Shown: positions 4,234 through 25,523 of the stretch, piece after piece | Layout: each line of letters opens with the position of its first letter | Position numbering within the stretch: the first letter of the stretch is position 1 | Source of the DNA: Acidobacteriota bacterium | GTDB lineage: Bacteria > Acidobacteriota > Terriglobia > Acidiferrales > UBA7541 | Direction: 5' to 3' | DNA: 64,000 nt | Assembly: GCA_013289585.1 (NCBI GenBank) | Contig: JABCZR010000006.1 | Span: forward strand, 124,001-188,000 | Notes under the pieces: model-generated | Told to the model about the DNA's origin: nothing | The model's database searches: none | The model's input: only the letters and a program-made list of their open reading frames with translations | Made by a program: the position numbers and the translations under genes

Positions 4234-5343
4234 GTGCTCATCGGTCTCTTTCCAGAGCTGGATGCGCCCGGCGGGGTGCAACGCGCGGGGCGCCACCTGG
4301 CGGCGGTGCTCACCGAGTTTGCGTCCAGCCGCGGCATGGAATGCCGCCTGCTCAGCCTGAATGATTCGCCGGAGTTACACCGCATGACGCTGGGGGGCCG
4401 GGAGTTCGTTTACACCGGGTGCGAGCGCGCCAAAGGGCGGTTCACGACAACGGCGATGCGCGCGGCGCGGCGAAGAGCAAAACTGGTTTTAGCCGCACAC
4501 CCTAATCTGGGACCCGTGGTCCAAGCAATGCGGCTGGTGGCGCCGCGAATGAAAAGCATTATTTGCACGCATGGCATCGAAGTATGGGAACCGCTGTCCG
4601 GGCTGCGGCGGCGCGCGCTGCGCCATGCCAATCTCGTGCTGGCGCCCAGCAGGGATACCGCGGATCAGGTAGCGTCGCAACAACAAGTGGCTCGGGAGAA
4701 AATCCGCGTTTTGCATTGGGCGCTGGACCCGCAATTCGAAGCGCTATTGGCTGCCGGAACGCAATCCCGGCCGGCTGAATTTCCGGCCGGGCGCGTAATC
4801 CTCACCGTCGGACGGTGGCTGGCCACCGAGCGCTACAAAGGCATGGACACGCTGATTACCGCGTTGCCGCGGCTGCTGCCGCGCTGGCCGGAGCTACAAC
4901 TGGCGCTGGTGGGGTCAGGCGATGACCGCGCATGGCTCGAGGAACTCACGGAAAAAAATGGCGTGCTTCGCCACGTACATTTCTTGAGTGGATTGAGTTC
5001 CGCGGAACTCGCGGCGTGCTACTCGGCATGCGAAATTTTCGCGCTGCCCAGCCAAGGCGAGGGGTTCGGGCTTGTCTATCTGGAGGCGATGGCGCGGGGG
5101 AAGCCGGTTATTGGGGGCGCGCACGGGGGCGCACCGGAAGTGATCGAAGACGGCGTCACCGGCTACCTGGTTCCACACGGTGATCCGATCCAGCTCGCGA
5201 CGTCGATCGAGGCGCTTTTAGCGGACCCGGCGAATGCGAAAGAGATGGGCGCGCGGGGACGGCAGCGCGTCGAACGCGAGTTTCGCTTCAATGTCTTCGC
5301 GAAATCCTTCAAAAAAATTCTCCGCGAACAATGCGAATCCTGA
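4234..5343 (+). CDS. GT4-family glycosyltransferase (first of the glycan cluster)
   Basis: The product is 369 aa with two Rossmann-like halves of the GT-B fold. The N-terminal half carries the acceptor-side loop PGGVQRAGRHLA. The C-terminal half carries GRWLATERYKGMDTLI and the E-x7-E signature EGFGLVYLE near residue 275, which binds the nucleotide sugar donor in retaining GT4 enzymes. No membrane segment is visible, so it is probably a cytosolic or peripheral enzyme adding one sugar to a lipid-linked oligosaccharide. The start is GTG at 4234. The next transferase begins 13 nt before this gene ends, pointing to translational coupling. Donor and acceptor cannot be read from sequence. Confidence 0.85.
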   Translation: MLIGLFPELDAPGGVQRAGRHLAAVLTEFASSRGMECRLLSLNDSPELHRMTLGGREFVYTGCERAKGRFTTTAMRAARRRAKLVLAAHPNLGPVVQAMRLVAPRMKSIICTHGIEVWEPLSGLRRRALRHANLVLAPSRDTADQVASQQQVAREKIRVLHWALDPQFEALLAAGTQSRPAEFPAGRVILTVGRWLATERYKGMDTLITALPRLLPRWPELQLALVGSGDDRAWLEELTEKNGVLRHVHFLSGLSSAELAACYSACEIFALPSQGEGFGLVYLEAMARGKPVIGGAHGGAPEVIEDGVTGYLVPHGDPIQLATSIEALLADPANAKEMGARGRQRVEREFRFNVFAKSFKKILREQCES

Positions 5344-6527
5344 ACGTCACAGAAACGTACGCCCCATTTCTGGAATTCGGCGGCCCTCCGGTCAAAGTCC
5401 GGGCACTTGCGGAAGGATTGGCGCGACGCGGCCATACGGTCGGAGTGCTAACGGCCGACTGGGGCTTCGAAAAACGCATGCAGTCGCAGGAAGAAAAAAT
5501 ATCCGCGGAACGATCTCCGTTCGGCTGGCGCGGCACGGAAAATGGCGTGCAAGCGATTTACTTGCCGACGTGGCTGCGCTTCCGGGCGGTCAGCTGGAAT
5601 CCGGCGGTGAAGCGTTACTGCCGTGCGCGGCTGCAAAATTTCGACATCGTGCACATTTTCGGCCTCTACGACTTGCTGGGGCCGGCGGTTGCGGAGGCAT
5701 GCCGCGTTCGAAAGATGCCGTATGTCCTCGAGCCGATCGGCATGTTCGTGCCGATTGTGCGGAATCTCCGGCTGAAGGGGTTCTATCATTTCGTTTGGGG
5801 CCGGCGGCTGTTGGAGGGAGCAAGCGCGGTAATTGCCACATCGAATCAGGAGGCTGAGGAGTTGATTTCCGGCGGCGTGCCGGGCGCAAAGATTACTCTG
5901 CGGCGGAATGGTGTGGAGGTTCCGGCGGCGTGGCCGGAGTCGGGAACGTTTCGAAAGACACACGGGATCCCGAGCGATACGAAAATGGTTCTGTTCCTGG
6001 GGCGGTTATCGTTGAAGAAAAGTCCTGACCTGCTGTTGCGGGCTTTTGCGGAACTCACGAGCCGTTCGAAGGGAATGCCGACCAGGCTTGTCTTTGCGGG
6101 TCCCGACGAAGGCGGAGTGACAGCACAACTGGAACAGATGGCAACCCAAGCCGGAATTCGAACGAACGTGCAATTTACGGGGCCAATATTCGGGGCGAGC
6201 AAATGGGCCGCCTACCGGGATGCCGATGTGTTTGTTCTTCCTTCGCAGAACGAGAATTTCGGGAACACGGCGGCGGAAGCGGTGGCCGCAGGCACTCCGG
6301 TGATCGTGACCGAACAGTGCGGGATCGCACCGCTCCTGAAGGACGAGGCTGGCCTGGTGGTGCGTCACGATTCCACTGCGCTTTCCGAAGCGCTGGAGCG
6401 GGTGCTGAATGACCCGGAAGAGCGGGCGAGGCTCGCTGCGGGAAGCAGAAAGACCGCCGCGCGGCTGGGATGGGATGAGCCGGTCCGGGAACTAGAAGCC
6501 CTGTACGCCAAGCTTGCTCCCGGTTAA
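5331..6527 (+). CDS. GT4-family glycosyltransferase
   Basis: The product is 398 aa with a GT-B fold. The N-terminus (MRILNVTETYAPFLEFGGPP) is the typical start of a GT4 enzyme. The donor half has FLGRLSLKKSPDLLLRAF and the E-x7-E motif ENFGNTAAE near residue 307. It overlaps the upstream transferase by 13 nt, so the two are expected to be made together and probably act successively on one glycan. The sugar specificity is not predictable. The family assignment is firm, and the ATG at 5331 gives the standard N-terminal strand. Confidence 0.87.
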   Translation: MRILNVTETYAPFLEFGGPPVKVRALAEGLARRGHTVGVLTADWGFEKRMQSQEEKISAERSPFGWRGTENGVQAIYLPTWLRFRAVSWNPAVKRYCRARLQNFDIVHIFGLYDLLGPAVAEACRVRKMPYVLEPIGMFVPIVRNLRLKGFYHFVWGRRLLEGASAVIATSNQEAEELISGGVPGAKITLRRNGVEVPAAWPESGTFRKTHGIPSDTKMVLFLGRLSLKKSPDLLLRAFAELTSRSKGMPTRLVFAGPDEGGVTAQLEQMATQAGIRTNVQFTGPIFGASKWAAYRDADVFVLPSQNENFGNTAAEAVAAGTPVIVTEQCGIAPLLKDEAGLVVRHDSTALSEALERVLNDPEERARLAAGSRKTAARLGWDEPVRELEALYAKLAPG

Positions 6528-6562
6528 CATAGCAGGCAGAATCTGAATCTGTGGGGTAGGAC

Positions 6563-7423
6563 TTGCCGACGCCTGGACATCGAATTTTTCGCGCCGCGTG
6601 GTGGAGCAGCAATCTGCTGCTGGCGCTTGCCTTCGTCGGACTGCTTTATTCCTGCGTGCGGGAGTACTCCGTGCGCCGGTATCTCGACGGCTTCTCGGAC
6701 GCAATTGTGCCGAACATTCTTCCCGAGGAACAAAAGCTGGACGCCATTCTGAACTGGATGCGCGCCGAGTCGTCGCGAGCAACCGCGACGAATGTGGATG
6801 AATTGCCGAGTCGCGATCCGGAGGCGACACTCACTTACCGCCAACTTTTGAACGTCTGCGGAACCGCGACGAATGCGTTCTTGAACCTCGCACGGAGCTC
6901 GGATCTGCGAGTGCGCCGGCTGCTGCTGCTGACGCCGGACCGAAATACGAAACACGTGGTAGCGGAAGTCCTGATTGGGGAACGGTGGATCATTGTCGAT
7001 CCAACGTATCGCGTGATCATGAAGGATGCGCGGGGCCGCTATTTGACGCGGCAAGAACTGCGGAATCCCGCGATTTATGCGGAAGCAATCAGTGCAATTC
7101 CGGATTATCCGCGGGAATATACTTACGATCAATTTGCCCATGTGCGGTTGGCACGGCTCCCGCTCGAGGGACTACATCTCCGGCCCCTGCTAGACTCGAT
7201 CGCCCCTGGCTGGGATGAAGCCGTCGATTGGAGCTTGCTCCTGGAACGCGAATCGTTTTTTTATCTGGTGTTGGCTGGAGCGGCGACGCTCTTTTTTCTC
7301 GTTCTCAGGGCGCTCCTCGCCTGGTATGCGGACAAAGGTTTGAGAATCCCTCGCTTCCATCTGCGCGAACATATGGCCCGAGCCGGCGCGGCGTTTATCT
7401 CTACGCCGGAGATCAAAGAATAG
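6563..7423 (+). CDS. Membrane-anchored transglutaminase-like protein in the glycan cluster
   Basis: The product is 286 aa. A transmembrane segment (about 16-31) is followed by a soluble core and a second transmembrane segment (about 230-254). The core shows the transglutaminase-like triad with normal order and spacing: C99 in LLNVCGTATNAF, H131 in NTKHVVAEV and D146 in RWIIVDPTY. Such enzymes cleave or form amide bonds, and many bacterial ones are proteases or peptide ligases. The start is TTG at 6563 with GGGGTAGG just upstream. The stop is one base from the AsnB start at 7425, so the pair is tightly coupled. Its place between glycosyltransferases and an amidotransferase suggests it acts on, or exports with, the amidated glycan (inference). 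The substrate is unknown. Confidence 0.7.
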   Translation: MPTPGHRIFRAAWWSSNLLLALAFVGLLYSCVREYSVRRYLDGFSDAIVPNILPEEQKLDAILNWMRAESSRATATNVDELPSRDPEATLTYRQLLNVCGTATNAFLNLARSSDLRVRRLLLLTPDRNTKHVVAEVLIGERWIIVDPTYRVIMKDARGRYLTRQELRNPAIYAEAISAIPDYPREYTYDQFAHVRLARLPLEGLHLRPLLDSIAPGWDEAVDWSLLLERESFFYLVLAGAATLFFLVLRALLAWYADKGLRIPRFHLREHMARAGAAFISTPEIKE

Positions 7424-7424
7424 C

Positions 7425-9383
7425 GTGTGCGGAATATGCGGCGTCGCGTTTGCCTCGCGCAACGCCGAAGCAGAAACGCGCGTGCGCGCGATGACCGCGG
7501 CGATGCGGCATCGCGGGCCCGATGAAGATGGGTTCCTAATCGGGGACACGCGGGCGCCAGGGCTGGCCCTGGGGATGCGGCGGCTGAGCATCATTGACAT
7601 CGCCGGGGGGCAGCAGCCGGTTTGGAATGAGACGCGTGACGTTGCGGTCATTTTCAACGGCGAACTCTACAATTATCGAGAATTGCGCGAGCGGCTGGCG
7701 CTGTGCGGGCACCGGTTTGCGACGCAATCCGACACTGAAATCCTGGTTCACGCGTGGGAAGAGTGGGGCGAAGATGCGCTGAATGAATTGCAGGGCATGT
7801 TTGCGTTCGCGCTGCTCGATCTACGAGGGCGCTATGCCACTGCGCCGATTCTATTTCTTGCGCGCGATCCGCTGGGGATCAAACCGCTCTACTACACGCA
7901 AACACCGGACGGATTTGCATTTGCTTCCGAGGTTCGCGCGCTGCTTGCGTCGGGCGCGGTGCCCAAACAGCTCTCTCAGGATGCGCTTACTTCTTATTTG
8001 CTCTTTGGCAGCGTGAGCGAGCCGGTGACGCTGCTGGAGGGCGTGTTTTCGCTGCCACCCGGACATCGAATGCTGCTGCATGTGCCGGAGCGCAGGCGTA
8101 CGCCGCGGGCACGGCCATGGTGGGACCGGGCACAGAGTCCCGCGGCTCGCGACACTCGCAAACCTCGTGATCTCAGTTCCGCGGCGCGACAGCTTCGAAC
8201 GCTGCTCGAGGCCGCGGTGCGGAAGCATCTCATCGCGGACGTACCGGTGGGACTGTTTCTTTCAAGCGGGCTGGATTCCGGGGCGATCGCGGCGCTTGCC
8301 GCGCAGAACAAGGCGGGAATTCAGAGTTTTACGCTTACGTTTCCCGGCACGCCGTTCGACGAAGCGGAGCTTGCGCGGACGGTCGCGAATCACTACAAGA
8401 CGAAACATACAGAAGTGCCTTTGACGGGCGATGCGATTCTGTCACGCATCGATGAGGCGGTGGCCGGCCTCGACCAGCCGACGATGGATGGGATAAACAG
8501 TTATTTTGTTTCCTGGGCGGCGAAAGAAGTCGGGCTGAAAGTTGCACTCTCGGGACTTGGCGGCGACGAACTTTTCGCGGGTTATCAGACTTTTGCAGAT
8601 ACGCCACGGCTTTCGAGATTGATTCGGTCCGCTTGGTTTGTACCGGGAGTGGTGCGGCGTCTGACGGCGCCGATGGTAGCCAGTTTGATCTGGCGACAAA
8701 AAACGCCGGACGCATCGAGAAAAGCCGCGTCAGCGTGGGCGCATCCGGACGCGCTGCCGCATCCTTATTTTTTTACGCGGGCGCTCTTCCCGCCGGGACA
8801 ACTGGAACGAATCATCGAGCCACGATTTCGACCAAGCACGATCAGCGCGGATGGCGTGACGCTGGAGCCCACGTGGCTTGGCTGGCTGGAACGGACTGCG
8901 GATGAGGCACGCAAGCTGGAGCCGGTTGCGGGAGTTTCCTGGCTGGAAATGCGGACGTATATGGCCAGCACGTTGCTGCGCGACACCGATTCCGTGAGCA
9001 TGGCGCAATCGCTGGAAGTTCGCGTGCCTTTGCTGGATACGTTGGTAGTTGAGTTTGCCGAATCGCTGCCGGACGCGGCGCGGTGGCGGCCAGGAACGCA
9101 GAAGGCGCTGCTGGTGGAAGCGCTTGGAGATCTACTGCCACGGGAAATTCTGGCGCAGCGCAAGCGGACGTTCACTCTGCCATGGGAAGAATGGCTTCGA
9201 GGGCCGCTACGCGCACGAGTCGAGGCAAGCTTCGCCAGCCCCGCGGCGGCGCTTGCTCCCTTGCTACGCCCGGGCGGATTGCATTCCGTATGGAGCGACT
9301 TTCTCGCCGGAAAAACTAGCTGGTCGCGGCCGTGGTCACTTTATGTGTTGAACGAATGGTGCCGTCGACACCTCGCCGCATAA
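7425..9383 (+). CDS. Asparagine-synthase-type glutamine amidotransferase (glycan amidation?)
   Basis: The product is 652 aa. After the GTG start comes Cys2 (MCGICGV), the N-terminal nucleophile of class II glutaminases, with the glutamine-site FNGELYNYRELR. The synthetase half has the ATP-binding loop FLSSGLDSG near 280 and LSGLGGDELFAGY. All catalytic parts look intact. Housekeeping AsnB makes asparagine, but paralogues in polysaccharide loci (for example WbpS of Pseudomonas O-antigen and the exosortase-associated amidotransferases) convert sugar carboxylates to amides. The setting among glycosyltransferases, with uronic-acid genes 18 kb downstream, favours a glycan role. Genuine asparagine synthesis cannot be excluded. 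Confidence 0.85.
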   Translation: MCGICGVAFASRNAEAETRVRAMTAAMRHRGPDEDGFLIGDTRAPGLALGMRRLSIIDIAGGQQPVWNETRDVAVIFNGELYNYRELRERLALCGHRFATQSDTEILVHAWEEWGEDALNELQGMFAFALLDLRGRYATAPILFLARDPLGIKPLYYTQTPDGFAFASEVRALLASGAVPKQLSQDALTSYLLFGSVSEPVTLLEGVFSLPPGHRMLLHVPERRRTPRARPWWDRAQSPAARDTRKPRDLSSAARQLRTLLEAAVRKHLIADVPVGLFLSSGLDSGAIAALAAQNKAGIQSFTLTFPGTPFDEAELARTVANHYKTKHTEVPLTGDAILSRIDEAVAGLDQPTMDGINSYFVSWAAKEVGLKVALSGLGGDELFAGYQTFADTPRLSRLIRSAWFVPGVVRRLTAPMVASLIWRQKTPDASRKAASAWAHPDALPHPYFFTRALFPPGQLERIIEPRFRPSTISADGVTLEPTWLGWLERTADEARKLEPVAGVSWLEMRTYMASTLLRDTDSVSMAQSLEVRVPLLDTLVVEFAESLPDAARWRPGTQKALLVEALGDLLPREILAQRKRTFTLPWEEWLRGPLRARVEASFASPAAALAPLLRPGGLHSVWSDFLAGKTSWSRPWSLYVLNEWCRRHLAA

Positions 9384-9417
9384 TGCGTTCGGCTGGGGTA
9401 CACTGACAAATCACGCA

Positions 9418-11166
9418 ATGAATATTCTTGGGATTAATGCGTACCACGGAAACGCTTCGGCGGCGATTGTCTGCGATGGACGGCTGATCGCGGCAGTTGA
9501 AGAGGAACGATTCAATCGCGTGAAGTATGCGGCTGGTTTTCCGGCGCAGGCGATCCGCTACTGCCTTAAAGAGGCGGGATTGACGCTTGCGGATATCGAT
9601 CACGTGGCGGTGCCGCGAAATCCGTACGCGCGGCTGGCGACTAAACTTTTTTACGCGATGCGAATGCCGTCGTTTGCGCGCGAACGGGCGAAAGTGCTTG
9701 CGAAATTCACAGGGATACCCGACGCGCTCGCAGCGGCTTTTGACAGCGATCCTAAAAAACTAGGCGCGAAATTCCACCGCGTAGAACATCATCAGGCGCA
9801 TCTGGCGAGCAGTTTTTTTGTTTCACCGTTCGAACGGGCGGCGCTGCTTTCCGCGGACGGGCTGGGAGATTTCGCCAGCACGATGTGGGGCACGGGCAGC
9901 GGGAACCGCATGCATATCGACGGGGCCATCGCTTTTCCGCACTCACTCGGGCTTTTCTACAGCGGCGTCACACAGTATCTGGGGTTTCCGAAATTCGGCG
10001 ACGAATACAAAGTAATGGGGCTGGCGGCATACGGCCAGCCGGAACAGATGGATGCCTTTCGGGATATTGTGCGTTTCGACGGGCGTTCGAATGGGAATGG
10101 TTTCCGGCTGTGTCTCGACTACTTCACACACCATCGGACAGGGCCGGAGATGAGCTGGGCGGAAGCGGACAAGACACCGACGCTCGGCAAAATGTTTTCG
10201 GAGGAAATGCCAAAACGGCTGGGGCCGACTCGTGGTCCAGATGAACCGCTTGAACGGCGTCATCGAAATCTGGCGGCATCGTTGCAGGCGCGGCTTGAGG
10301 AAGTTTATCTGGGAATGTTGAAAAAGCTGGCCGAGCGGACCGGGTTGAAGGCGATTTGCCTTTCGGGTGGCGTAGCTTTTAATTGCGTAGCGAATGGAAA
10401 AATATTCGAGGTCACGCCGTTTGAGCAGGTTTACGTGCATCCAGCCGCGGGGGACGCGGGGCTGGCGGTGGGCGCGGCGTATTACCTGTGGCACCAGAAA
10501 CTTGGGAAGCCGCGTTCGTTTGTGATGGAGCACGCTTATTGGGGGCCCGGCTACACGCGCGCAGAGATTCGGCGTGCGATCGATTCGAACGGGATTGCAC
10601 AGAAGGGCTTTCGCGTCAGCGAATTGGCAGAAGAAGAATTGGTGCGCGATACAGCAGCGATTATTGCGGATGGAAAAATTCTTGGGTGGTTTCAGGGCCG
10701 CGCCGAATGGGGCCCGCGGGCGCTCGGTAACCGCAGCATTGTGGCAGATCCGCGGCGTCCGGAGATGAAGGAGATCCTGAATCGCCGGATCAAGCACCGA
10801 GAAATCTTCCGGCCGTTTGCACCATCGATTCTTTCGGAAGCCACCGGCGAGTATTTCGAGAAGTCGCATCCTTCGCCGTTCATGACGCTGGCGTATTCCG
10901 TGCGCGCGGACAAGCGCGGGGCGATTCCCGCGCCCACGCACGTGGACGGGACCGGCCGTCTGCAAACTGTGACGCGCGAAGCGAACCCGCGCTATCACGC
11001 GTTGATCTCAGCGTTCCGCGACCTTACCGGCGTTCCCGTGGTTCTGAACACGTCGTTCAACGACAACGAGCCGATCGTCTGCCGTCCGGAAGAAGCGATC
11101 GATTGCTTCCTGCGTACCCAGATGGACGCGCTGGTCCTTGGTGATTTCTTGATCACAAAGTCGTGA
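9418..11166 (+). CDS. Carbamoyltransferase of the NodU/CmcH/TobZ family
   Basis: The product is 582 aa. The N-terminal Kae1-like ASKHA half starts MNILGINAYHGNASAAI and has the metal-binding HHQAH motif near residues 123-127. It continues with LSGGVAFNCVANG, a nucleotide-binding stretch. The C-terminal half has GRAEWGPRALGNRSIVADP and VLNTSFNDNEPIVC, characteristic of the family. These enzymes use carbamoyl phosphate and ATP, through carbamoyl-adenylate, to carbamoylate a hydroxyl on a sugar or other small molecule. It lies 34 nt after the amidotransferase gene and 25 nt before the next transferase, so it is probably one operon decorating the same glycan. The substrate is inferred from context only. 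Confidence 0.88.
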   Translation: MNILGINAYHGNASAAIVCDGRLIAAVEEERFNRVKYAAGFPAQAIRYCLKEAGLTLADIDHVAVPRNPYARLATKLFYAMRMPSFARERAKVLAKFTGIPDALAAAFDSDPKKLGAKFHRVEHHQAHLASSFFVSPFERAALLSADGLGDFASTMWGTGSGNRMHIDGAIAFPHSLGLFYSGVTQYLGFPKFGDEYKVMGLAAYGQPEQMDAFRDIVRFDGRSNGNGFRLCLDYFTHHRTGPEMSWAEADKTPTLGKMFSEEMPKRLGPTRGPDEPLERRHRNLAASLQARLEEVYLGMLKKLAERTGLKAICLSGGVAFNCVANGKIFEVTPFEQVYVHPAAGDAGLAVGAAYYLWHQKLGKPRSFVMEHAYWGPGYTRAEIRRAIDSNGIAQKGFRVSELAEEELVRDTAAIIADGKILGWFQGRAEWGPRALGNRSIVADPRRPEMKEILNRRIKHREIFRPFAPSILSEATGEYFEKSHPSPFMTLAYSVRADKRGAIPAPTHVDGTGRLQTVTREANPRYHALISAFRDLTGVPVVLNTSFNDNEPIVCRPEEAIDCFLRTQMDALVLGDFLITKS

Positions 11167-11191
11167 ACCGCATGACGCGCATTCCCAAGAC

Positions 11192-12400
11192 ATGAAGATC
11201 CTGCTGCTCAACCTCTACTATTCGCCGGACACGTCGGCGACGGCGAAGATGGCGCGCACTGTGGTGGAGGCACTTTCGACCAAACATGAAGTGACAGTGC
11301 TGTGCGGACGGCCATCCTACGACCCAACGGAGCGGCGCGCCTGGCGGTTGTTTCGAAGCGAGATGGACGGTCGAGCGCGCGTCATTCGAACGGGCTCGAC
11401 GGATTTTCCGCGGATAGAGATGAAAAAGCGCATGGTAAATTATTTAAGCTACACGATGCTGGCGATTCCGCGCGCGTTGTTTGTGGAGTGCGACGTGGTG
11501 CTGGCGATGACCGATCCGCCGTTCGAAGGAATTACCGGGGCGATCGTCGCGATGTTGAAGGGAAAGCCGTACGTTTATAACATTCGCGATATGTATCCGG
11601 ACATGGCTGTAGGCGGATCCATCGTCAAGCCCGGGATGCTCGCGCGCGTCTGGGAAAGACAGCATCGCTGGGCGCTGCGCCGCGCGACTCGAGTGATTGT
11701 TCTTGGCGACGATATGCGTGCGCGAATTGTTGACAAGGCAGTGGAGCCCTCGCGGGTGGTGATAGTGCGCGACGGTGCGGAAGTGGTGCGGAGCGATATA
11801 TCAGTCGCCGCTGCTGATGCGGAAGTTGTGCGCGCCATTCGCGGGGATTTTTCGTTTGTGCTGTTGCACGCGGGAAACCTGGGGTTTTACGGCGCGTGGG
11901 ACACGCTGATCAGCGCGGCGCGGACACTTGCGAGCGAGGGAGTCGGCCTGGTGTTCGTCGGCGACGGAGCGCAGCGCGCGCAGATCGAGGCAAGTGCCAC
12001 GGGGGCGGAAAACATCCGGTTTCTGGAGTTTTTTCCAGCCAGCAAGATTCCATCGGTACTGGCGGCGGCGGACGCACACGTTATCACGGTAAAACGGGGT
12101 CTCGAAGGCGTGGTGGTGCCCAGCAAAATGTACGGAATACTGGCGGCGGGGAAACCGATCGTGGCGGTTGCAGTGGAAGAGACGGATGCGGTGTCGATTG
12201 GGGTGCGGCGCGGGTTCGCAGTTAACGCCGATCCGGACAAACCAGAGGAATTGGTTTCCGTCGTTCGTGCTCTGGCCAGTGATTCAACAAAGACAAAGAG
12301 GATGGGCGAGGCGGCGCGAGCGGCTGCGCCTGACTATGATAGAGTCAAAGAATTACAAAAATTTGTTGAAGTTTTCGATAGCCTCGCGGCAGCGAAATAA
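11192..12400 (+). CDS. GT4-family glycosyltransferase, WbuB-like
   Basis: The product is 402 aa. MKILLLNLYYSPDTSATA at the N-terminus and YNIRDMYPDMAVGGS in the first half match the WbuB-like subgroup of GT4, which transfers amino-deoxy sugars such as L-FucNAc in O-antigen loci. The donor half includes LLHAGNLGFYGAWDTLI and VVVPSKMYGILAAGKPIVA; the conserved PSK replaces a classical E-x7-E first Glu, as is usual in this subgroup. A weakly hydrophobic patch near 85-100 may help membrane association. It follows the carbamoyltransferase by 25 nt and precedes the epimerase by 20 nt. The exact sugar is not predictable. Confidence 0.84.
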   Translation: MKILLLNLYYSPDTSATAKMARTVVEALSTKHEVTVLCGRPSYDPTERRAWRLFRSEMDGRARVIRTGSTDFPRIEMKKRMVNYLSYTMLAIPRALFVECDVVLAMTDPPFEGITGAIVAMLKGKPYVYNIRDMYPDMAVGGSIVKPGMLARVWERQHRWALRRATRVIVLGDDMRARIVDKAVEPSRVVIVRDGAEVVRSDISVAAADAEVVRAIRGDFSFVLLHAGNLGFYGAWDTLISAARTLASEGVGLVFVGDGAQRAQIEASATGAENIRFLEFFPASKIPSVLAAADAHVITVKRGLEGVVVPSKMYGILAAGKPIVAVAVEETDAVSIGVRRGFAVNADPDKPEELVSVVRALASDSTKTKRMGEAARAAAPDYDRVKELQKFVEVFDSLAAAK

Positions 12401-12420
12401 CTTCGAGAGGAAGAGCGCGC

Positions 12421-13455
12421 GTGACGCAAGCGGAAACGTTCTGGACGGGAAAAACGGTTTTTGTGACGGGAGGAGCTTCGTTCATCGGCTCGACACTTAC
12501 CGATCATCTGCTGGCGCGCGGCGCCGCGAGGGTGCGGATCGTCGACGATCTGAGCAGCGGCCACCTGGACAACATTCGCGGGCATCTGGGCACCGGCAAG
12601 GTTGATTTTTTGCAGGCGGATCTGCGCGAGCCAGGAGTGACGCGTGCTGCGATGCACGGCGTGGACACCGTATTTCATTTAGCGGCGGATCACGGTGGAC
12701 GCGGGTACGTCGATCTACACCAAGCCGGACCGGCCTCCAACTTTTTCCTGGACGGACTGGTTTTTGCAGAAGCGCTGAAAGCCAAAGTGAACAAAGTGGT
12801 ATTTGCTTCCTCCGGGTGCGTGTATCCGAATTTCATGCAATCGGATACGACAAAAGAACTTTATCTGACGGAAGACCTCACGAAGGGACCGAACGACGCG
12901 GACAACACCTACGGGTGGGCGAAATTGATGGGCGAATTCACACTGCAGGCTTATGCGAAGGAACACGGCATGGGCGCGGCTTCGTGCCGGTATTTCACGG
13001 TCTATGGCCCGCGCGGTGTGGAAAACCATGCGGTGATTGCGATGATCGCGCGTGCGTTTTTACAGCTGAACCCGTTTGAAGTCTGGGGCGACGGCACGCA
13101 GATTCGCAATTGGACTTACATTGACGATATTGTGGAAGGCACGATCCTGGCGGGAGAGAAAATCAACGACGGGACGGCCATCAACCTGGGGACGATGGAG
13201 CGAATTCAGGTAATCGATTGCGCGAAGATGGTTTGTGAGTTCACCGGGCACAAGGCGGAAATCAAGCTATTGAAGAACATGCCTACCGGTCCGCTGAATC
13301 GCGTAGCGGATAATGCGCTGGCGAAGAAACTCCTTGGGTGGGAGCCGAAAGTTAAGTTCCGCGAAGGCCTGAAACGAACGATTGATTGGTACTACGCCAC
13401 GCGGGATAAAGCGGAAGTAAAGCGAATCTTTACGCGAATGCTGACGGAGCGTTGA
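12421..13455 (+). CDS. NAD-dependent SDR epimerase/dehydratase
   Basis: The product is 344 aa, an extended short-chain dehydrogenase. The NAD-binding glycine motif TGGASFIGS lies near residues 17-25. The SxnYxxxK catalytic set shows SSGCVYPN and YGWAKLMGEF. The C-terminal substrate domain has GDGTQIRNWTYIDDIVEG. It resembles GDP-mannose 3,5-epimerase-like and 4,6-dehydratase-like SDRs; which reaction it does cannot be told from sequence alone. The start is GTG at 12421 with GAGAGGAAGAG upstream. It is the last gene of the tightly spaced 4234-13455 run; a 267-nt gap follows. Confidence 0.82.
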   Translation: MTQAETFWTGKTVFVTGGASFIGSTLTDHLLARGAARVRIVDDLSSGHLDNIRGHLGTGKVDFLQADLREPGVTRAAMHGVDTVFHLAADHGGRGYVDLHQAGPASNFFLDGLVFAEALKAKVNKVVFASSGCVYPNFMQSDTTKELYLTEDLTKGPNDADNTYGWAKLMGEFTLQAYAKEHGMGAASCRYFTVYGPRGVENHAVIAMIARAFLQLNPFEVWGDGTQIRNWTYIDDIVEGTILAGEKINDGTAINLGTMERIQVIDCAKMVCEFTGHKAEIKLLKNMPTGPLNRVADNALAKKLLGWEPKVKFREGLKRTIDWYYATRDKAEVKRIFTRMLTER

Positions 13456-13529
13456 GCCAGGATAAACTGCCTTGAAAGTCCTAAGCCTCGAGAAGTCAAT
13501 CCACTGTATTCAAATAATGTGGGCACTCG

Positions 13530-13542
13530 CAGGATTATCCTG
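13530..13542. promoter_or_regulatory. Short inverted repeat in the gap before the WecA-like gene
   Basis: CAGGAT-T-ATCCTG is a perfect 6+6 inverted repeat with a one-base centre, 74 nt after the epimerase stop and 181 nt before the WecA-like gene. A one-base loop cannot form a normal terminator, so an operator half-site pair is more likely than a terminator. Chance is possible at this length. Confidence 0.25.
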
Positions 13543-13722
13543 ATTGTTTCGCAACAAAAACCGCAGTATGGTGTTAAGGCTGCGTGGGGCAGCCAGTTGG
13601 CCGTTCATAGGTCAACCATCCAGCTGTAACTTGGGAGCCGGACCCCAAACCCGGCAAGAGTTGCGTGAGGCAGCGGCCAAACCGCCTGGGCCGAGAACGT
13701 CTCGCACACCAATCGAGGATGC

Positions 13723-14775
13723 ATGGCCGCAGGCCTGCTGGCATTTTTCATTGCGCTATTCGCGTCGCTGATGCTGGTAGTTCCAGTGCGCGCGCTGGCG
13801 TTGCGTGTTGGGATGGTCGACCTGCCCGGACCGCGGAAGGTGCACCTGCAGCCGATTCCGATGCTGGGCGGCCTGGCGATTTATGCGGCGGTGGTGATCG
13901 CCGTTCTCTTCGCATTTAATGGGCCCACGAGAGCTCAAATCGTGGGCATTCTGATCGGCGCGACGCTGGTGGCGGGCGTCGGGATTCTTGACGACCGCGG
14001 GCTGCTTCACCATCAGGTAAAACTGTTCATGGCTATGCCGCTAGCCGCGGTGATTTTGATGGTGAGCGGAATCCGCGCGCAAGTGTTTAGCGCGCTTATA
14101 GGCGGACGGAGCGGCGACTACCTGGATGTAGGGCTTACCGTTGTTTGGGTCGTCGGCATCACGGCTTCTTTCAGCATTTTGGATCATATGGATGGATTGT
14201 GCGCGGGCATCGCGGCAATGGCTTCGGTGTTTTTCGCTCTGCTGGCGTACTTACATGGGCAGATGCTGGTGACCGTGCTGGCTGCGGCAGTGCTTGGAGC
14301 TGCGACCGGTTTCCTGCGCTGGAATTTCAAGCCGGCAAAAATCTTCATGGGCGATGGCGGGGCGATGTTTCTCGGTTTCCTGATGGCTACGCTGGGGCTG
14401 AAACTAAGGCTGGACAATAGCAGTCATCTCTCTTCCTGGCTCGCACCCATTCTGATTCTGGGCGTCACGATTTTCGATACTACGCTGGTGACGATTTCAC
14501 GTTCGCGCCGGGGGCTGCTGCCTTTCGCGACTCCGGGGAAAGATCACGCGGCGCATCGCCTCTCCAATCTTGGACTCGGCCATCGCGGCGCGGTTCTAAC
14601 GCTTTATTTCCTCGGCGCCATTGGCGGCGGCACGGCCGTCCTGGTCAGTTATCTTTCAACGGCGGGAGCGTTTCTGGTTGGCGCCATAACTCTGGCGATC
14701 ATATTCAGCGGGGTCATGTTCCTTGAGCGCGCGCCGTACGAACGCCAGGCCAGCAAACCTTCGGCGACCTCCTAA
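13723..14775 (+). CDS. WecA/MraY-type polyprenyl-phosphate sugar-1-phosphate transferase
   Basis: The product is 350 aa with about 10-11 predicted membrane helices along its length. Family motifs in order: GPRKVHLQPIPMLGG near 38-50 (donor-side loop), LDDRGLLHH near 87, LDHMDGLCAG near 153-162 (Mg-binding Asp), FMGDGGAMFLGF near 206-217, and KDHAAHRLSN, which stands for the HxHHR region. These enzymes move HexNAc-1-P from the UDP sugar to undecaprenyl phosphate and so start glycan assembly at the inner membrane. It follows the glycosyltransferase cluster after a 267-nt gap, so it may have its own promoter. A role in starting the cluster's polymer is the natural reading; WecA-like work for LPS or teichoic-type glycans is the alternative. 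Confidence 0.87.
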   Translation: MAAGLLAFFIALFASLMLVVPVRALALRVGMVDLPGPRKVHLQPIPMLGGLAIYAAVVIAVLFAFNGPTRAQIVGILIGATLVAGVGILDDRGLLHHQVKLFMAMPLAAVILMVSGIRAQVFSALIGGRSGDYLDVGLTVVWVVGITASFSILDHMDGLCAGIAAMASVFFALLAYLHGQMLVTVLAAAVLGAATGFLRWNFKPAKIFMGDGGAMFLGFLMATLGLKLRLDNSSHLSSWLAPILILGVTIFDTTLVTISRSRRGLLPFATPGKDHAAHRLSNLGLGHRGAVLTLYFLGAIGGGTAVLVSYLSTAGAFLVGAITLAIIFSGVMFLERAPYERQASKPSATS

Positions 14776-14828
14776 GCCAATCAATCTGGCGGACCTTTCG
14801 TGAACTACTGAGCTGGCAGCGCAAGAGT

Positions 14829-14856
14829 TTGCCCTAGCTGTTGGATTCGCTATACT
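14829..14856 (+). promoter_or_regulatory. Candidate promoter for the flavoprotein gene
   Basis: TTGCCC (14829-14834) is followed after 16 bp by TATACT (14851-14856), a good -10. A start near 14863 would allow the TTG at 14882 or any later start of the downstream gene. Confidence 0.4.
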
Positions 14857-14881
14857 TACCGGGCACCCTCTCACCCATTTT

Positions 14882-16165
14882 TTGGGCAGGTCCTCACGGG
14901 TTGGGCGGGAAGTAGCCAAAATCTTGCGTGTGGCGTCCCTGGTAGAACGAATTTGCAGTGGACGGACGCCGTTGAGGCACACAGAAGCCTTGGGGAACAT
15001 TGAGAGACAGCCGCGGCCAAGCAGCCGGGTTGACCGGGAAGTTATCGTCGTCGGAGGCTCAGCAGCAGGATTGTTCACCGCTGCGAGCGTGGCCCGTGGC
15101 GGTCGCCGTGTCCGCGTACTGGAATCCAAACCGCAATTCGAACCCGCGCCGCGCACACTGATCGTCACCGATCAATTCCGAAGCCAGATGGGCGCCTCGG
15201 CCCGCGAAAGTATCGTCAACGAAATTCGCCGCTTCGAATTGTTTACGGATGGGCGCTCGGCGCAGGTGGCGCTAACAAAGCCCGACCTCATTATTGAGCG
15301 ATCACGGCTGATTCCCGCGCTGGCCCGCGAAGCGCAACAAGCGGGCGCCAACCTTTCGTTTGACACGCGCTTTTTGGGCATTGGCCCGAATGCGCGCGGA
15401 TTGCGACTGGAAGTGGAAACCGGAGGCCAGCGCGAGGAATTGCACGCGGACAGCGTTGTTGGAGCAGACGGCGCGGCGAGCCGCGTAGCGCGTGCTTCCG
15501 GCTGGCCGCCCATCGAGACTGTGCCGCTGGTCCAAGCGATCGTAAGGCTGCCGAAAGATTGCCCGCCAGATACTACGCGCGTGTGGTTCGTGCCGGACGA
15601 CACGCCCTATTTTTACTGGTTGATTCCAGAATCGGCGGAGCGCGGAGCCGTCGGCGTGATTGGCGAAAATGGCGGCGATACCAAGCGATGTTTCGAACGA
15701 TTTCTGGAAAAGAAGCATATGGAGCCGCTGGAGTGGCAAGGCGCGCGGATACCCGTCTACCGGGGCTGGGTGCCGGTGCGGCGGCAAATCGGGAATGGCG
15801 AAGTCTACCTGGTAGGTGACGCGGCGGCGCAAGTGAAAGTATCCACGGTGGGAGGAATCGTAACCGGATTTCGAGGCGCGCTGGGAGTGGCGCAAGCGCT
15901 CCTGCAAAATGGCAAAAGCCAGGAGCTGGGCGCGTTACGACGCGAGCTCGGCACACACTGGCTGATTCGCCGCGCGCTGCACCGGTTTCAACAGAAGGAT
16001 TATTCGGAGCTGGTTGATTTGCTGGATGCTTCGACGCGCCAATCGCTCGGCGAGATCAATCGCGATGAATCCACGCGGCTGCTCTGGAGCGTGGTCCGCC
16101 GGCAGCCGCGCCTCGTACTGCTTGGACTACGCGGGCTGCTGATGGGGAAAACAGAAAAGAACTAA
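14882..16165 (+). CDS. FAD-dependent oxidoreductase, geranylgeranyl-reductase-like
   Basis: Up to 427 aa. The FAD-binding Rossmann motif VVGGSAAGL begins only near residue 56, so the real start is probably later than the TTG at 14882. GTG 14930 and TTG 14990 are in frame; none has a strong ribosome site. Family marks are VVGADGAASRVAR, the aromatic YFYWLIPES and GDAAAQVKVSTVGGIVTG, which fit the geranylgeranyl-reductase group that saturates double bonds of polyprenyl chains using a reduced flavin. The C-terminal 70 residues are helical and basic. It sits 107 nt after the polyprenyl-phosphate transferase, suggesting it works on the lipid carrier (inference). Another flavin monooxygenase-type activity cannot be excluded. 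Confidence 0.75.
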   Translation: MGRSSRVGREVAKILRVASLVERICSGRTPLRHTEALGNIERQPRPSSRVDREVIVVGGSAAGLFTAASVARGGRRVRVLESKPQFEPAPRTLIVTDQFRSQMGASARESIVNEIRRFELFTDGRSAQVALTKPDLIIERSRLIPALAREAQQAGANLSFDTRFLGIGPNARGLRLEVETGGQREELHADSVVGADGAASRVARASGWPPIETVPLVQAIVRLPKDCPPDTTRVWFVPDDTPYFYWLIPESAERGAVGVIGENGGDTKRCFERFLEKKHMEPLEWQGARIPVYRGWVPVRRQIGNGEVYLVGDAAAQVKVSTVGGIVTGFRGALGVAQALLQNGKSQELGALRRELGTHWLIRRALHRFQQKDYSELVDLLDASTRQSLGEINRDESTRLLWSVVRRQPRLVLLGLRGLLMGKTEKN

Positions 16166-16187: not shown

Positions 16188-19100
16188 CTAAAAAAGATCG
16201 AACGAAAAAACGTGCCCGGTGGAATCCCCAACATAAAACTTCAGAGTATAGGTGTCGAAACTGGGGTCGCCAATGATTGCACCGGCATTGATCAGGCGAT
16301 TGGCGACGTTCGCGCCGCTAGTGGGATTGATCTTGTACAGGTGGCCGTCAGAAGAACCCACGTACATAAACTCGGCTTGCGGCGGAGAGGTGAAAATCAA
16401 GGACGAAGGACTGGCAATCGCGGGATTGACCCAGCCGCCTGGTGAGACGGAAAATGTTGGCGCAGCGCAAGCTCCTATAGTGTAGGCCACGTGAACTTTC
16501 GAAACACCCGTTGTGGTTGCGAAAAACACATCATCGTTCAGCGCCGCTGTTTCAATAGGAATGGGAAAGCCCACGGGAATGACGCCGGGAACCGTTACGC
16601 TTCGAGAGCAAGCGTTGATCTCCGTGCGCACCGCGTAGAGCAAACCAGCGTTAGTAGTGACATAAAGAATGTGGCTGTCAAAATTTTGCGTCGGTGACTG
16701 GTCTGTATCGCCCAAATTGAAGGACGTCGATAGGGTTCCATTGTTGGTGCTGATCTTCCAAAGGCTGGGCCGAGCTACTCCGCCATTGGAACGACTGGTG
16801 ACCCAGACCACATTGTTGACGTAATCGATGTAGGGAGTCGAGCTGACGATGTCCATGCTTCCAGGGCTGAAGGTCCAGACTGTCGCGCCAGTGTTTCCAT
16901 TCAATCCAAAAACCCTGTTGTTGGTTGTGCTGCCCACACCAATATTTCGCGTGGCAACGACGACGAGATCAAACGCATTGGTGTACCCCACGCCGCTGTA
17001 CGATTTTACCTGCACGGCCGGCGCAGCTTGGAAACCGCTTCCGGCCCCGGTGGTCAGTACGGCGGTTTGCCACAGCAAGCCTCCGGTATCCGCGCGGAAG
17101 GCATAGACGGTGCCGTCGCCGGCGGCAACATAGGTGATGTCGCAGACATTCTTGCAAGTGGGATTCGAAGTATCGGAAGCGGCGATCAATGGCGGACGCG
17201 TCTGAATCGTTCCGCCAGTAACGCCGGAAGTGCCACCCGGCTGATAGTTGCGCTGACCGGTGGCCGCGGACATGGCATGCACGGCATTATCGTTGCCGCC
17301 GGTAAGTACAATATTCCCGGGATCCAGAGCCGGCGCCGCGAGAGTCGTTGCGCCAGTCTTGTAGCTCCAGTCCTTATTAACGCCGCCGCCGATCGCGGTA
17401 GTAATCGTCTGCGTCGAGGTATTGCCAAAGGAATAGTGCGGCGGAATAGCGGAAGCCGCACCTGTAATCGTGGTGGCATCGTGAGTGTAGCCCTTATAGG
17501 CGTATTGCGTGCCCGGCAAGACGATACTGGTGTCGCCGTTTTCATCGAAAGCACTTACGGTTGCAAAGGATGCGGTGTTTGCTGCAATGAATTGCCCTGC
17601 GACGGGCTGGGCCCCGGTGACATAGACCGTACCATCGGCGGGGGCAAAGGTTGGCGCGACGCTGCCCGGCTGCTTGGCAAACAACACGCCATCATAGTTG
17701 GCGTTCGTCGAACCAGTGGGGAAGGCCCAGTTCAAAGTGATCTCGGAGATTCCGGGAAGCGCGGCGGCCATGGTGACATCCCGCAGATAATGCAGAACGA
17801 GTGTGGGCTGGTTTCCGGCGGAGTTTTCGCGGGAGCCATAAAGGGGCGACAAGGCATTGTTGGCCTCAGCGCCAACCGCCGCCGCGGGCTCCGGTTCGGT
17901 GTAGCGGCGGGCGAGGAAATTGTCGAAGTCGTAGTTCACCAGATTTCCGTTGTAAACGAAAAGGCCGACGGAGCCAGCGGTGGCGACGTTGGCATCGCCA
18001 ACAATCGAAGGGACCTGGAGCACACCGTTGACAAAGGTGCGCAATGTTGCGGGGCTGCCGAAAAAGGCTCCGCCAACGGTGTAGAACGTGCTGTCGTTCC
18101 AGACGTAAGCGGGTTCCTGCAAACTATTAAAAGCGCCGGCGTTCCAATAGGCGAGCTGCGACACTCGCTGGTCGGGATTTGCGCCGACGGTTATAAATTG
18201 CAGACAAGAACGGTAAGCGGCGAGATCAGAGCCGGTGGGGTTGACTCCGCTGACGCGGCCGATGGGACACCCGGTGCTTTCCAGGCCAGCGGCGGAAGTC
18301 ATGCGCACATCAGCCTGAACGAAAACATCGCGCTCGCTGGTGACGGAATTGAATTTGATGACATTCCGTTCGGTGACGGTGGTGTTGGATTCGCGGAGAA
18401 TGCGATTCGTCCCGACGTCGGCAACGACGTTCCACGGGCCGTTGGCCTGTACGGTCCATCCGGCGGGGGGTTGATTCAACGTGTCGGCATCAAAGTTGTC
18501 GTAGGCGAGATAGACGTTATTGAGATTGGCCGGAGGCGCAGGAGCGTTGGCGTTGCCATAAAACATGGAGTAGGTGGCGTCGGTGCCGTTCGCGGCGATG
18601 TCGGCCTGCAACTTGAACCAGATGGTGGTGCTGGCGGTATTGCAGTTGATGACCTGGCGGTCGAGCTGCGTCCAGGTGTTGGCGGCAAAACGAGCGATCC
18701 TGAGGTCATTGCAATCGGAGCGCATTTTCCCGGCGGTGATCAGCGCAGCAGTATTGAAGCCGCTGATTTGCGCGCTATAGCCGTTGTAGCCGTTGAACGG
18801 CGCATTGGCGCCGGCGGTGACGGTGATGGTCCGAGTAAAGGACCAGGTGGCGCCATCTTCGAGCGAGTCTTTTACCAGCAGCCCGAAGTTCGGAATCGTT
18901 CCGTTCACCCATCCTTGGGGAATATTTGCCGACGTCGAATCGCTGAGAACGTTGAAGGTGACCGTTGCCGCAGCCCCCGAGGACGTGCCCGAAGGTTGGG
19001 TATCCGTCGCGGTGGGATCGAAGTCACCTCCCGCCGTGACCCAGGCGAGCGCGCCATTGCGAGTATTCCATGTTACGCCGGCTTCGGTCCAATTGGTCGT

Positions 19101-19445
19101 GCCGGTGATGCGATGGGCCTCCTGCGTGCGACTGGTGAAGAGCGGAGTAATCGGGACCAGATTCAGTGCCGAAGTCTTTAATGCCGTGTTGGAATTCAGG
19201 CCCGTAGGGGCAAGATTGAATTGCACAAGCGAGCGTTGATTGGCGTTCAGGGCCGTGTGTGTGGAAAGAGTCATGCCCGTGCCATTGTTTGTCGTCGGAG
19301 CGGCCTGGTTGATCGTGGCGTCGCTGGAAGAGGTTACGGTGGTCTTTTCGTCCGAGCGGAGCGGCGCGGGACAGACCAGGAGCAGCGCTAGAAAGCACCT
19401 GAGCCCGGCGCCAAGGTAAGTACGCATTGCTTTCGAATTGTTCAT
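16188..19445 (-). CDS. Large secreted DNRLRE / DUF2341 / PQQ-propeller protein
   Basis: The product is 1085 aa. The signal peptide spans about 1-30. The first domain (about 33-170) matches the DNRLRE pattern of bacterial surface proteins (QRSLVQFNL, WTEAGVTWNTRNGA). A DUF2341-like, concanavalin-type region follows (about 195-290; GYNGYSAQISGF, YSMFYGNANA). A laminin-G/LamG-like stretch lies at about 300-470. The C-terminal 400 residues are a PQQ-like beta propeller (DGTVYAFRADTGGLLWQT, LYAVRTE, GHLYKINP). It shares a 4-bp ATGA overlap with the upstream small secreted protein, so the two are co-translated. Threonine- and asparagine-rich composition fits an exposed, possibly adhesive or glycan-binding surface protein. 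The function is unknown. Confidence 0.78.
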   Translation of the reverse strand: MNNSKAMRTYLGAGLRCFLALLLVCPAPLRSDEKTTVTSSSDATINQAAPTTNNGTGMTLSTHTALNANQRSLVQFNLAPTGLNSNTALKTSALNLVPITPLFTSRTQEAHRITGTTNWTEAGVTWNTRNGALAWVTAGGDFDPTATDTQPSGTSSGAAATVTFNVLSDSTSANIPQGWVNGTIPNFGLLVKDSLEDGATWSFTRTITVTAGANAPFNGYNGYSAQISGFNTAALITAGKMRSDCNDLRIARFAANTWTQLDRQVINCNTASTTIWFKLQADIAANGTDATYSMFYGNANAPAPPANLNNVYLAYDNFDADTLNQPPAGWTVQANGPWNVVADVGTNRILRESNTTVTERNVIKFNSVTSERDVFVQADVRMTSAAGLESTGCPIGRVSGVNPTGSDLAAYRSCLQFITVGANPDQRVSQLAYWNAGAFNSLQEPAYVWNDSTFYTVGGAFFGSPATLRTFVNGVLQVPSIVGDANVATAGSVGLFVYNGNLVNYDFDNFLARRYTEPEPAAAVGAEANNALSPLYGSRENSAGNQPTLVLHYLRDVTMAAALPGISEITLNWAFPTGSTNANYDGVLFAKQPGSVAPTFAPADGTVYVTGAQPVAGQFIAANTASFATVSAFDENGDTSIVLPGTQYAYKGYTHDATTITGAASAIPPHYSFGNTSTQTITTAIGGGVNKDWSYKTGATTLAAPALDPGNIVLTGGNDNAVHAMSAATGQRNYQPGGTSGVTGGTIQTRPPLIAASDTSNPTCKNVCDITYVAAGDGTVYAFRADTGGLLWQTAVLTTGAGSGFQAAPAVQVKSYSGVGYTNAFDLVVVATRNIGVGSTTNNRVFGLNGNTGATVWTFSPGSMDIVSSTPYIDYVNNVVWVTSRSNGGVARPSLWKISTNNGTLSTSFNLGDTDQSPTQNFDSHILYVTTNAGLLYAVRTEINACSRSVTVPGVIPVGFPIPIETAALNDDVFFATTTGVSKVHVAYTIGACAAPTFSVSPGGWVNPAIASPSSLIFTSPPQAEFMYVGSSDGHLYKINPTSGANVANRLINAGAIIGDPSFDTYTLKFYVGDSTGHVFSFDLF

Positions 19446-20131
19446 CGTCCTGATCCTGCTTCTTCCTGTGCTTTGGCGGGCGCGGGCAGAGGCGCCAGTG
19501 TGAATTCGGATTCCAGCGCGAGGCGGTCATCCAGAAATACGCGCACATGCCAGGTGCCACCGAGATTTCGCTGGGTAATATAGGTTCCACCGACAGGCAG
19601 GACGGTTAGAATGGCGGAATCGCCGCGGGTCTTCATCAGCAGTGAGGGAATCCCTTCGGCATGAATCTTGTTTGCGTCGGCCATCAAGTGGCGTGCCGGC
19701 GGAACGGGCGCAACCTGATTTTGAACGGCAGGCGCCACTGCGGAAAATGCCATCACTCCGCCGATAATGAACTGCGTTTTCTTGGAGGAATACAGACTGC
19801 CATCTGGCAAGCGGAATTCCACCGTTTGCACATGCTGGCCGGCAACTCCGGGCCAGGCGACGAAGACGTACAAATCCCGCAGTTCGGCTAGAGAAAAGAC
19901 GTCCTGAGTTGTGCGGCAGGTTGTCTCTGGCGTTTCACAGAAGAAAATTTCCGGACCGCGAAGTTTCGGCTGGGGGGGCCAGATGTGCAGGCTGGCGCTT
20001 GAACCTGGCGCGCTACTGTCCGGTGAGGGCGTAACCATAACACGCGGAGACTGGGCAGCTGCATCCTGGCAGATTCCCAGGAGCAGGCAAGAAAAAATGA
20101 AAGATAGAACGACGAGACGAATTCGTCCCAT
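19442..20131 (-). CDS. Small secreted protein, partner of the DNRLRE/PQQ protein
   Basis: The product is 229 aa with a clear signal peptide (about 1-26, ending DAAA-Q). The mature part is beta-rich with two Cys (CETPETTC) near 65-72 and a region GTWHVRVFLDDRLALESEF near the C-terminus. That region resembles the Ig-like accessory domains seen in acidobacterial secreted proteins. The stop overlaps the start of the large downstream protein by 4 nt, so they form a two-gene operon and probably a complex or assembly pair (inference). I recognise no family with an established function. Confidence 0.7.
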   Translation of the reverse strand: MGRIRLVVLSFIFSCLLLGICQDAAAQSPRVMVTPSPDSSAPGSSASLHIWPPQPKLRGPEIFFCETPETTCRTTQDVFSLAELRDLYVFVAWPGVAGQHVQTVEFRLPDGSLYSSKKTQFIIGGVMAFSAVAPAVQNQVAPVPPARHLMADANKIHAEGIPSLLMKTRGDSAILTVLPVGGTYITQRNLGGTWHVRVFLDDRLALESEFTLAPLPAPAKAQEEAGSGR

Positions 20132-25494: not shown

Positions 25495-25523
25495 TAAAGA
25501 CGACGAGGAGTGCGACGCTAGTC

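Follow-up and report, generated by a model that had tools for sequence, protein, structure and literature searches.

The window analysed here is a 64,000-nucleotide stretch of contig JABCZR010000006.1 (207 kb), from the genome of an Acidobacteriota bacterium (4.73 Mb in 32 contigs, 97% complete). Between positions 4234 and 16165 it carries nine open reading frames (ORFs), all on the + strand, which form a real, strongly conserved and lineage-specific variant of a Gram-negative surface-glycan locus. A first-pass annotation had reported nine co-directional genes of named families here, and we recovered the same ORFs in the same positions and, by re-deriving the families with Pfam and NCBIfam, the same assignments: three family 4 glycosyltransferases (GT4a, GT4b and GT4c), a transglutaminase-fold protein (TG), an AsnB-type glutamine-dependent amidotransferase (AsnB), a carbamoyltransferase (Carb), an SDR nucleotide-sugar epimerase (SDR), a WecA-type polyprenyl-phosphate sugar-1-phosphate transferase (WecA) and a geranylgeranyl-reductase-like FAD protein (GGR-like).

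The locus begins with GT4a (4234–5343, GTG start; PF00534, 137.7 bits), which is syntenic in relatives, and GT4b (5331–6527), whose top NCBIfam match is the hormogonium polysaccharide protein HpsP (177.6 bits, cut-off 550). They are followed by TG (6563–7423), with a hydrophobic helix near each end, and AsnB (7425–9383, GTG start), which matches PF00733 and PF13537. Carb (9418–11166) is of the TobZ/NodU type. GT4c (11192–12400) is WcaI-like, at 163.5 bits to NF007640 without reaching the cut-off of 276, and precedes SDR (12421–13455), WecA (13723–14775; PF00953, 103.3 bits; 10 hydrophobic segments predicted from hydropathy) and GGR-like (14882–16165; PF01494, 61.8 bits). The first seven genes are densely packed: GT4a and GT4b overlap by 13 bases, a single base separates the TG stop from the AsnB start, and the other gaps are 20–35 bases. 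Larger gaps lie ahead of WecA (267 bases) and GGR-like (106 bases). A scan for promoters and terminators gave 6 promoter-like sites (3.8 expected) and 26 terminator-like sites (15.7 expected), which we did not use as evidence.

The nine genes do occupy 4234–16165 as first annotated, but the locus does not end there. A UDP-glucose dehydrogenase gene (UGD; 20411–21760, + strand; PF03721/PF00984/PF03720) directly follows GGR-like, or a second carbamoyltransferase, in many relatives, and this source of UDP-glucuronate is part of the conserved locus. Next to it is a conserved neighbor on the opposite strand (21906–22844; Pfam GDP_Man_Dehyd/Epimerase), an SDR protein that we take from its kind to be UDP-xylose-synthase-like (UXS-like).

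Conservation of the gene order

Conservation of the gene order in relatives had been set beforehand as the test of the locus. We examined stretches from relatives (L numbers) and the 95 genomes of the bacterial order to which the organism belongs (G numbers). One set of 40 stretches was anchored on TG, one each from 40 of the 51 other TG-bearing genomes. The usual order in these is GT4a-GT4b-TG-AsnB-Carb-GT4c-(SDR)-WecA-GGR, often followed by UGD and the opposite-strand UXS-like gene. With identity thresholds that were set after the matches had been seen, GT4a was found in 35 of the 40 stretches, GT4b in 37, AsnB in 35, Carb in 30, GT4c in 26, SDR in 19, WecA in 24, GGR-like in 19, UGD in 13 and the UXS-like gene in 12. 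The order is thus kept, and because it recurs at about 41–93% protein identity (TG identity going down to about 41%), chance is not an explanation. Almost all of the relatives that we found are metagenome-assembled genomes from soil or peat.

AsnB was not found in L062 and L063, whose contigs run for no more than about 1.5 kb past TG, or in L065, L066 and L067, where TG is placed away from the locus. Carb was not found in these same five stretches, in L059 (contig end) or in L071, where other ORFs fill the 1.8 kb past AsnB; three further stretches without Carb are considered below. L043 and L049 have Carb and no later locus genes within 20 kb, and SDR is absent from L040, L042, L044, L050 and L068 despite retention of its flanking genes. 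In L055, L057, L060, L061 and L064, other genes are inserted between TG and AsnB, and some relatives' loci include methyltransferases and a second carbamoyltransferase.

TG, inserted between GT4b and AsnB, is an optional member of the locus. It is present in 52 of the 95 genomes of the order and 34 of the 36 genomes of the genus, our organism being counted in both; short fragments account for two of the 52 (G035 and G047). Counting Carb as present from 60% identity upwards, fragments included, we found it in 67 genomes, 45 with TG and 22 without; seven genomes have TG without Carb and 21 have neither. One of those seven (G018) does carry part of Carb where a contig ends (L047), which fell below the search threshold. 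A Fisher test for TG and Carb presence over the 95 genomes gives P = 0.00024, on which we do not lean because the genomes are related. A second set of 20 stretches was anchored on Carb and drawn from as many of the 67 genomes; TG is missing from 16 of these and is on another contig in the other four (G022, G034, G047 and G048). TG is in none of these 20 stretches and AsnB is in 15, with the order otherwise unchanged; the five without AsnB are L153 and L158 (contig ends), L156 and L157 (Carb alone), and L155, to which we return below. Likewise, the two members of the genus without TG have otherwise kept the locus (G031 in L150, G036 in L149). Therefore AsnB and Carb do not need TG, which rules out an obligate TG-AsnB pair.

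For the wider phylum we used an even set of 396 genomes, of which 93 (our own included) have Carb matches at E-values up to 1e-120, and drew 20 stretches from 19 genomes at high-scoring Carb places, with a few skipped. AsnB is in six of the 20 (L190, L195, L199, L200, L203 and L206), which belong to other families of the phylum, a GGR-like gene in three (L190, L200 and L203), WecA in five (L191, L201, L206, L207 and L209) and TG in none. TG itself has matches in 10 of the 396 genomes, the best besides our own at 27.5 bits. The association of AsnB with Carb therefore reaches beyond the order and is far from universal, and since the gene orders are shuffled in the wider phylum, the exact order is specific to this bacterial order.

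Several other genes were seen in and around these loci. Between GGR-like and UGD, the window has two opposite-strand genes (16188–20131), coding for a 1085-residue protein that matches CBM96 and PQQ-like repeats and for a 229-residue protein; the former is also in L032, L036, L037 and L070 and not in the other relatives' stretches that reach UGD. About 9 kb downstream, at 25386–29614, are a second UGD-family dehydrogenase, a SIS-domain protein and another SDR epimerase, probably further nucleotide-sugar genes, and the vicinity also carries a capsule-type neighbor (CpsB/CapC, PF19567). In one genus-mate (L040:11604–14000), a 798-residue protein with no predicted membrane segments and no Pfam or NCBIfam family is inserted between Carb and GT4c.

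Amidotransferase, carbamoyltransferase and lipid-carrier genes

We aligned E. coli AsnB with 47 AsnB proteins from these loci, the window's and 46 from relatives whose match coverage exceeded 90%. All 47 keep the glutaminase residues C2, R50, N75, G76 and D99 (E. coli numbering, counting Met1) as well as S, G and D in the ATP loop, and 46 keep E77. Two residues that we take to be on the aspartate side of the E. coli enzyme, R325 and E349 (of the SGEGSDE motif), are replaced: the first by N in all 47, the second by L in 45 and I in two. Because of these replacements AsnB, although it passes the asparagine synthase model TIGR01536 (430.7 bits, cut-off 267.1), is probably not an asparagine synthetase. 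The cluster AsnBs appear to be a subgroup with a conserved, non-canonical acceptor side and an acceptor that may or may not be that of WbpS. Amidation of a uronate is the likeliest reaction for them, and the presence of UGD in the locus makes a uronic acid plausible as the acceptor. A plasmid search with AsnB matched 556 records, all under 60% identity; the 25 that were listed were under 40% and had generic names.

In our genome there are just three strong matches of the AsnB type, and two belong to another locus. This is a separate glycan locus of the XrtA/PEP-CTERM type on contig C8 (L137:3171–17816), with two adjacent AsnB genes and matches above cut-off to TIGR03108 (862.7 bits), TIGR03087, TIGR03019 and TIGR03007. 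Its TIGR03108 protein has P and D at the positions of R325 and E349. The AsnB at L137:6680–8623 is matched by the models only from about residue 79, its N-terminal glutaminase part not being recognised.

Carb has both domains at full length and over their cut-offs (Carb_trans_N, 201.0 bits; Carb_trans_C, 242.8 bits). It matches the solved structures 7xb6 at 340 bits and TobZ (3vex) at 309 bits, and its HHxAH segment and C-terminal motifs align with 7xb6. A second carbamoyltransferase follows GGR-like in 10 of the 60 TG- and Carb-anchored stretches (L054, L056, L068, L140, L141, L145, L147, L152, L153 and L155). The nearest solved relatives of SDR are tied, GDP-mannose 3,5-epimerase (2c5e) at 132.9 bits and UDP-glucose 4-epimerase (4zrm) at 132.3 bits. 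Its Cys133 aligns with the Cys of the plant 3,5-epimerase's ACIYP motif in 29 of 29 sequences and His203 replaces the plant enzyme's Lys in all 29, where Cys145 and Lys217 are presumably the catalytic pair of that enzyme. With the tie and the missing Lys, we left SDR undecided between the two.

The TTG start assigned to GGR-like at 14882 is probably too far upstream, the true start lying downstream of it, since the FAD motif begins only near residue 53 and many orthologous ORFs are about 390–400 residues long. The first-pass label "geranylgeranyl-reductase-like" is appropriate at the level of the superfamily only, because the match to the geranylgeranyl-reductase subfamily TIGR02032 (121.1 bits) is under the cut-off of 158.8; the match to digeranylgeranylglycerophospholipid reductase (PDB 3oz2) is 37.1 bits. 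The gene accompanies WecA in 31 of the 40 stretches that have WecA (19 of 24 TG-anchored and 12 of 16 Carb-anchored). Of the nine others, L038, L057 and L158 end there, and L053, L055, L060, L146, L151 and L154 have room for the gene and lack it. A YFYWLIP motif is unchanged in all 10 sequences compared (the window's and nine of the 31 that passed a coverage filter), and among matches from distant families a GDAA...TTGGGI motif is present in two of three, the third being unreadable. GGR-like, beside WecA, might saturate the polyprenyl carrier to a dolichol-like lipid; it could equally well act on a quinone or some other lipid. Bacterial polyisoprenols are described as fully unsaturated in PMC5088576, in which archaeal geranylgeranyl reductases reduce the carrier, so a carrier-saturating role in a bacterium would be new.

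In sister genera, the locus includes a multi-helix protein (u8) and a GT4 (u3) upstream of GT4a and GT4b. We found no Pfam family for u8, and its HpsL matches score 52.1 bits for one member and 15.3 for a second (cut-off 640). A model built from nine sequences (pLDDT 79.7) has WaaL (7tpg) as its best Foldseek match (E = 1.5e-4), followed by FtsW/RodA at E-values of 5e-3 and above, and we read u8 as Wzy/WaaL-like on the strength of this model. Counting weak and partial matches, u8 is found in 64 of the 95 genomes of the order. In all five genus-mates looked at it stands beside u3 at another place; in G030 some 12 kb of the same contig separate that place from the main locus.

The transglutaminase-fold protein

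TG passes PF01841 (32.9 bits, cut-off 23), and its Cys99, His131 and Asp146 are invariant in 36 of 36 aligned sequences. In an AlphaFold2 model (pLDDT 77.6, pTM 0.66) the N terminus forms a long helix, the core is mixed alpha/beta, and residues 230–258 make up a second hydrophobic helix. Charges sum to +2 ahead of the first helix, to −3 within the loop and to +3 behind the last helix, a balance that suggests that the catalytic core is outside the cytoplasm. We infer this location from the charges. A TG profile found no relative among PDB sequences at E-values up to 10, and the best Foldseek match, 3isr, is weak (E = 5.2e-3, TM 0.26). In VIA-align most of the first 14 rows were long-helix matches (such as colicin, V-ATPase and flagellin), which we disregarded; the transglutaminase-fold rows start at rank 15. 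Among the rows on the core are TglA (9crn; Z = 6.8, rmsd 4.4, 111 residues aligned) and arylamine N-acetyltransferases, the amide synthase GdmF and factor XIII (Z = 5.7–6.5), all in the middling range. We therefore do not assign TG to a named solved family, the fold matches being weak and mixed. TG is probably a lineage-restricted membrane enzyme of the transglutaminase fold that is tied to glycan synthesis. In one relative (L065:9062–10950, − strand) it lies away from the glycan locus and adjoins a RimK-like ATP-grasp protein (PF08443).

Predicted glycan, alternatives and known systems

We think it likely that the locus makes an undecaprenyl-diphosphate-linked surface glycan with uronamide and O-carbamoyl groups, with substrates and an order of steps that we infer as follows. 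WecA would put the first sugar-phosphate onto the lipid carrier, and GT4a, GT4b and GT4c would lengthen the chain, one of them using UDP-glucuronate from UGD. AsnB, with glutamine and ATP, would convert the glucuronate carboxyl to a primary amide (the uronamide), Carb would add a carbamoyl ester to a sugar hydroxyl, and SDR would provide an epimerised nucleotide sugar. The product would then be flipped and, in relatives that keep the Wzy/WaaL-like protein, polymerised or transferred by it. The membrane-anchored TG would work on the extracytoplasmic side, with the finished glycan or a partner protein as its target, as an add-on and not as part of the core. The first-pass proposal of a glycan both amidated and carbamoylated is partly supported, by the conserved gene order, by the glutaminase site and altered aspartate-side residues of AsnB, by UGD, by the two-domain Carb (with a second carbamoyltransferase in some stretches) and by AsnB lying near Carb elsewhere in the phylum; both modifications, and the sugars that would carry them, are predictions. 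The prediction is one of concrete chemistry, a uronamide plus a carbamoyl ester. A literature search found no description of the locus or of a polysaccharide combining uronamide and carbamoyl groups, which is weak evidence because subscription papers were mostly outside it; in a proteomics table of PMC7326052 the two genes stand unrelated.

Some observations weigh against this interpretation. L048, L051 and L052 hold TG-AsnB with Carb absent from the stretch; L048 goes straight from AsnB to UGD, and L051 and L052 have nothing of the locus past AsnB. Conversely, L155 has Carb directly after GT4b, with no AsnB between them. AsnB is well under the cut-off of TIGR03108 (452.0 bits against 816.9), the family of WbpS and WbqG according to PMC7468200, and its acceptor-side motif is unlike that of our genome's own TIGR03108 protein, so that uronate is a candidate acceptor. 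Our genome's u8 is a C-terminal remnant of about 105 residues, on a 228-kb contig with no N nearby, and this genome has no match to PF01943 or PF04932, its sole PF13440 match being MurJ. With only a u8 remnant and no such family matches, this strain would either use another export route or leave its glycan short and unpolymerised. The remnant (contig C5, L215:9502–10062), whose full-length counterpart in a genus-mate is at L216:9606–11192, is either a real deletion or a misassembly.

One alternative is that AsnB serves the organism as its asparagine synthetase and just happens to sit in a glycan operon, the glycan being only carbamoylated. It would fit the TIGR01536 score and the scarcity of other strong AsnB-type matches outside the XrtA-type locus. 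However, the E. coli aspartate-side residues, whose role we presume, are replaced in every cluster AsnB, and the gene is kept in 15 of the 20 Carb-anchored stretches without TG and near Carb in six of the 20 from the wider phylum. Many bacteria, moreover, make asparagine by tRNA-dependent amidation, and we regard this alternative as unlikely. It is similarly improbable that TG joins the glycan to a protein or peptide, where the amide would be the leaving group or the link. Such a conjugate was the other product suggested in the first-pass annotation, for which we found no direct support; what speaks for it is TG, whose catalytic triad is intact, whose gene is one base from AsnB in the window and whose core overlaps TglA, arylamine N-acetyltransferases, factor XIII and GdmF, each weakly. 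Z scores under 8 and a Foldseek E-value over 0.001 do not fix the reaction of TG, though, and TG is missing from 22 of the 67 Carb-bearing genomes of the order, from the 15 Carb-anchored stretches that do have AsnB, and from the neighborhood of AsnB in L065, L066 and L067. A further speculative reading, likewise improbable, is that the AsnB-made uronamide, which resembles a glutamine side chain, could serve as the acyl donor for TG outside the cytoplasm, joining the glycan to amines of proteins, peptides or glycans; if this were true, amidation would be an activation for covalent cross-linking of the glycan.

Very unlikely, in our assessment, is a secreted small glycolipid of the moenomycin type instead of a surface polymer, with GGR-like acting on its isoprenoid part. 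The moe cluster is said to have the same combination of enzyme kinds, our genome has no Wzy_C match, and SDR matches MoeE5 (6kv9) at 94.8 bits, which is below its 132.9 bits to GDP-mannose 3,5-epimerase. The WecA-type starter, UGD, the capsule-type CpsB/CapC neighbor and the Wzy/WaaL-like protein of relatives' loci speak against it, as does the lack of a MoeO5-type gene among the Pfam matches of the part of the window's genes that was scanned.

Among known systems, the lasso-peptide B2/C pair also has a transglutaminase-fold protein beside an AsnB-like protein. The window's TG differs by its hydrophobic helices and by matching only PF01841, and its AsnB scores 199.7 bits against a lasso cyclase cut-off of 525; on these scores and helices we rejected a lasso-peptide reading. 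An XrtA/PEP-CTERM reading was also rejected, since the XrtA families listed for the nine genes are all under cut-off and the genome has its own XrtA-type locus on contig C8. The cyanobacterial hormogonium polysaccharide (HPS) system is approached by GT4b, with HpsP as its best match (177.6 of 550 bits), and by the relatives' u8, with HpsL (52.1 and 15.3 of 640), all of these far below the cut-offs. In the uronamide loci of the WbpS/WbqG type (O-antigen, A-LPS and XrtA; TIGR03108) and in b-Cool, an AsnB-type gene with an intact glutaminase also stands among glycosyltransferase and uronate-forming genes. WbpS of P. gingivalis is described as converting a uronic acid to a uronamide, with E. coli WbqG as another precedent (PMC7468200), wbpS-like genes are reported in a biofilm locus (PMC3684757), and the nine-gene b-Cool locus of Bordetella includes a putative asparagine-synthase gene, the mass of its glycan pointing to two uronate amides (PMC12407052). 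Our locus differs from the WbpS/WbqG type in its AsnB, at 452.0 of 816.9 bits, and in the added Carb and TG; the genome's own TIGR03108 protein (862.7 bits) sits on another contig in the XrtA-type locus and has different acceptor-side motifs. Like the O-carbamoyltransferases TobZ and NodU, Carb has both domains over cut-off, but it is located in a surface-glycan locus. Moenomycin biosynthesis reportedly unites an amidotransferase, a carbamoyltransferase, glycosyltransferases and an epimerase and places both decorations in one molecule, whereas our locus has a WecA-type start, UGD and, in relatives, a Wzy/WaaL-like gene.

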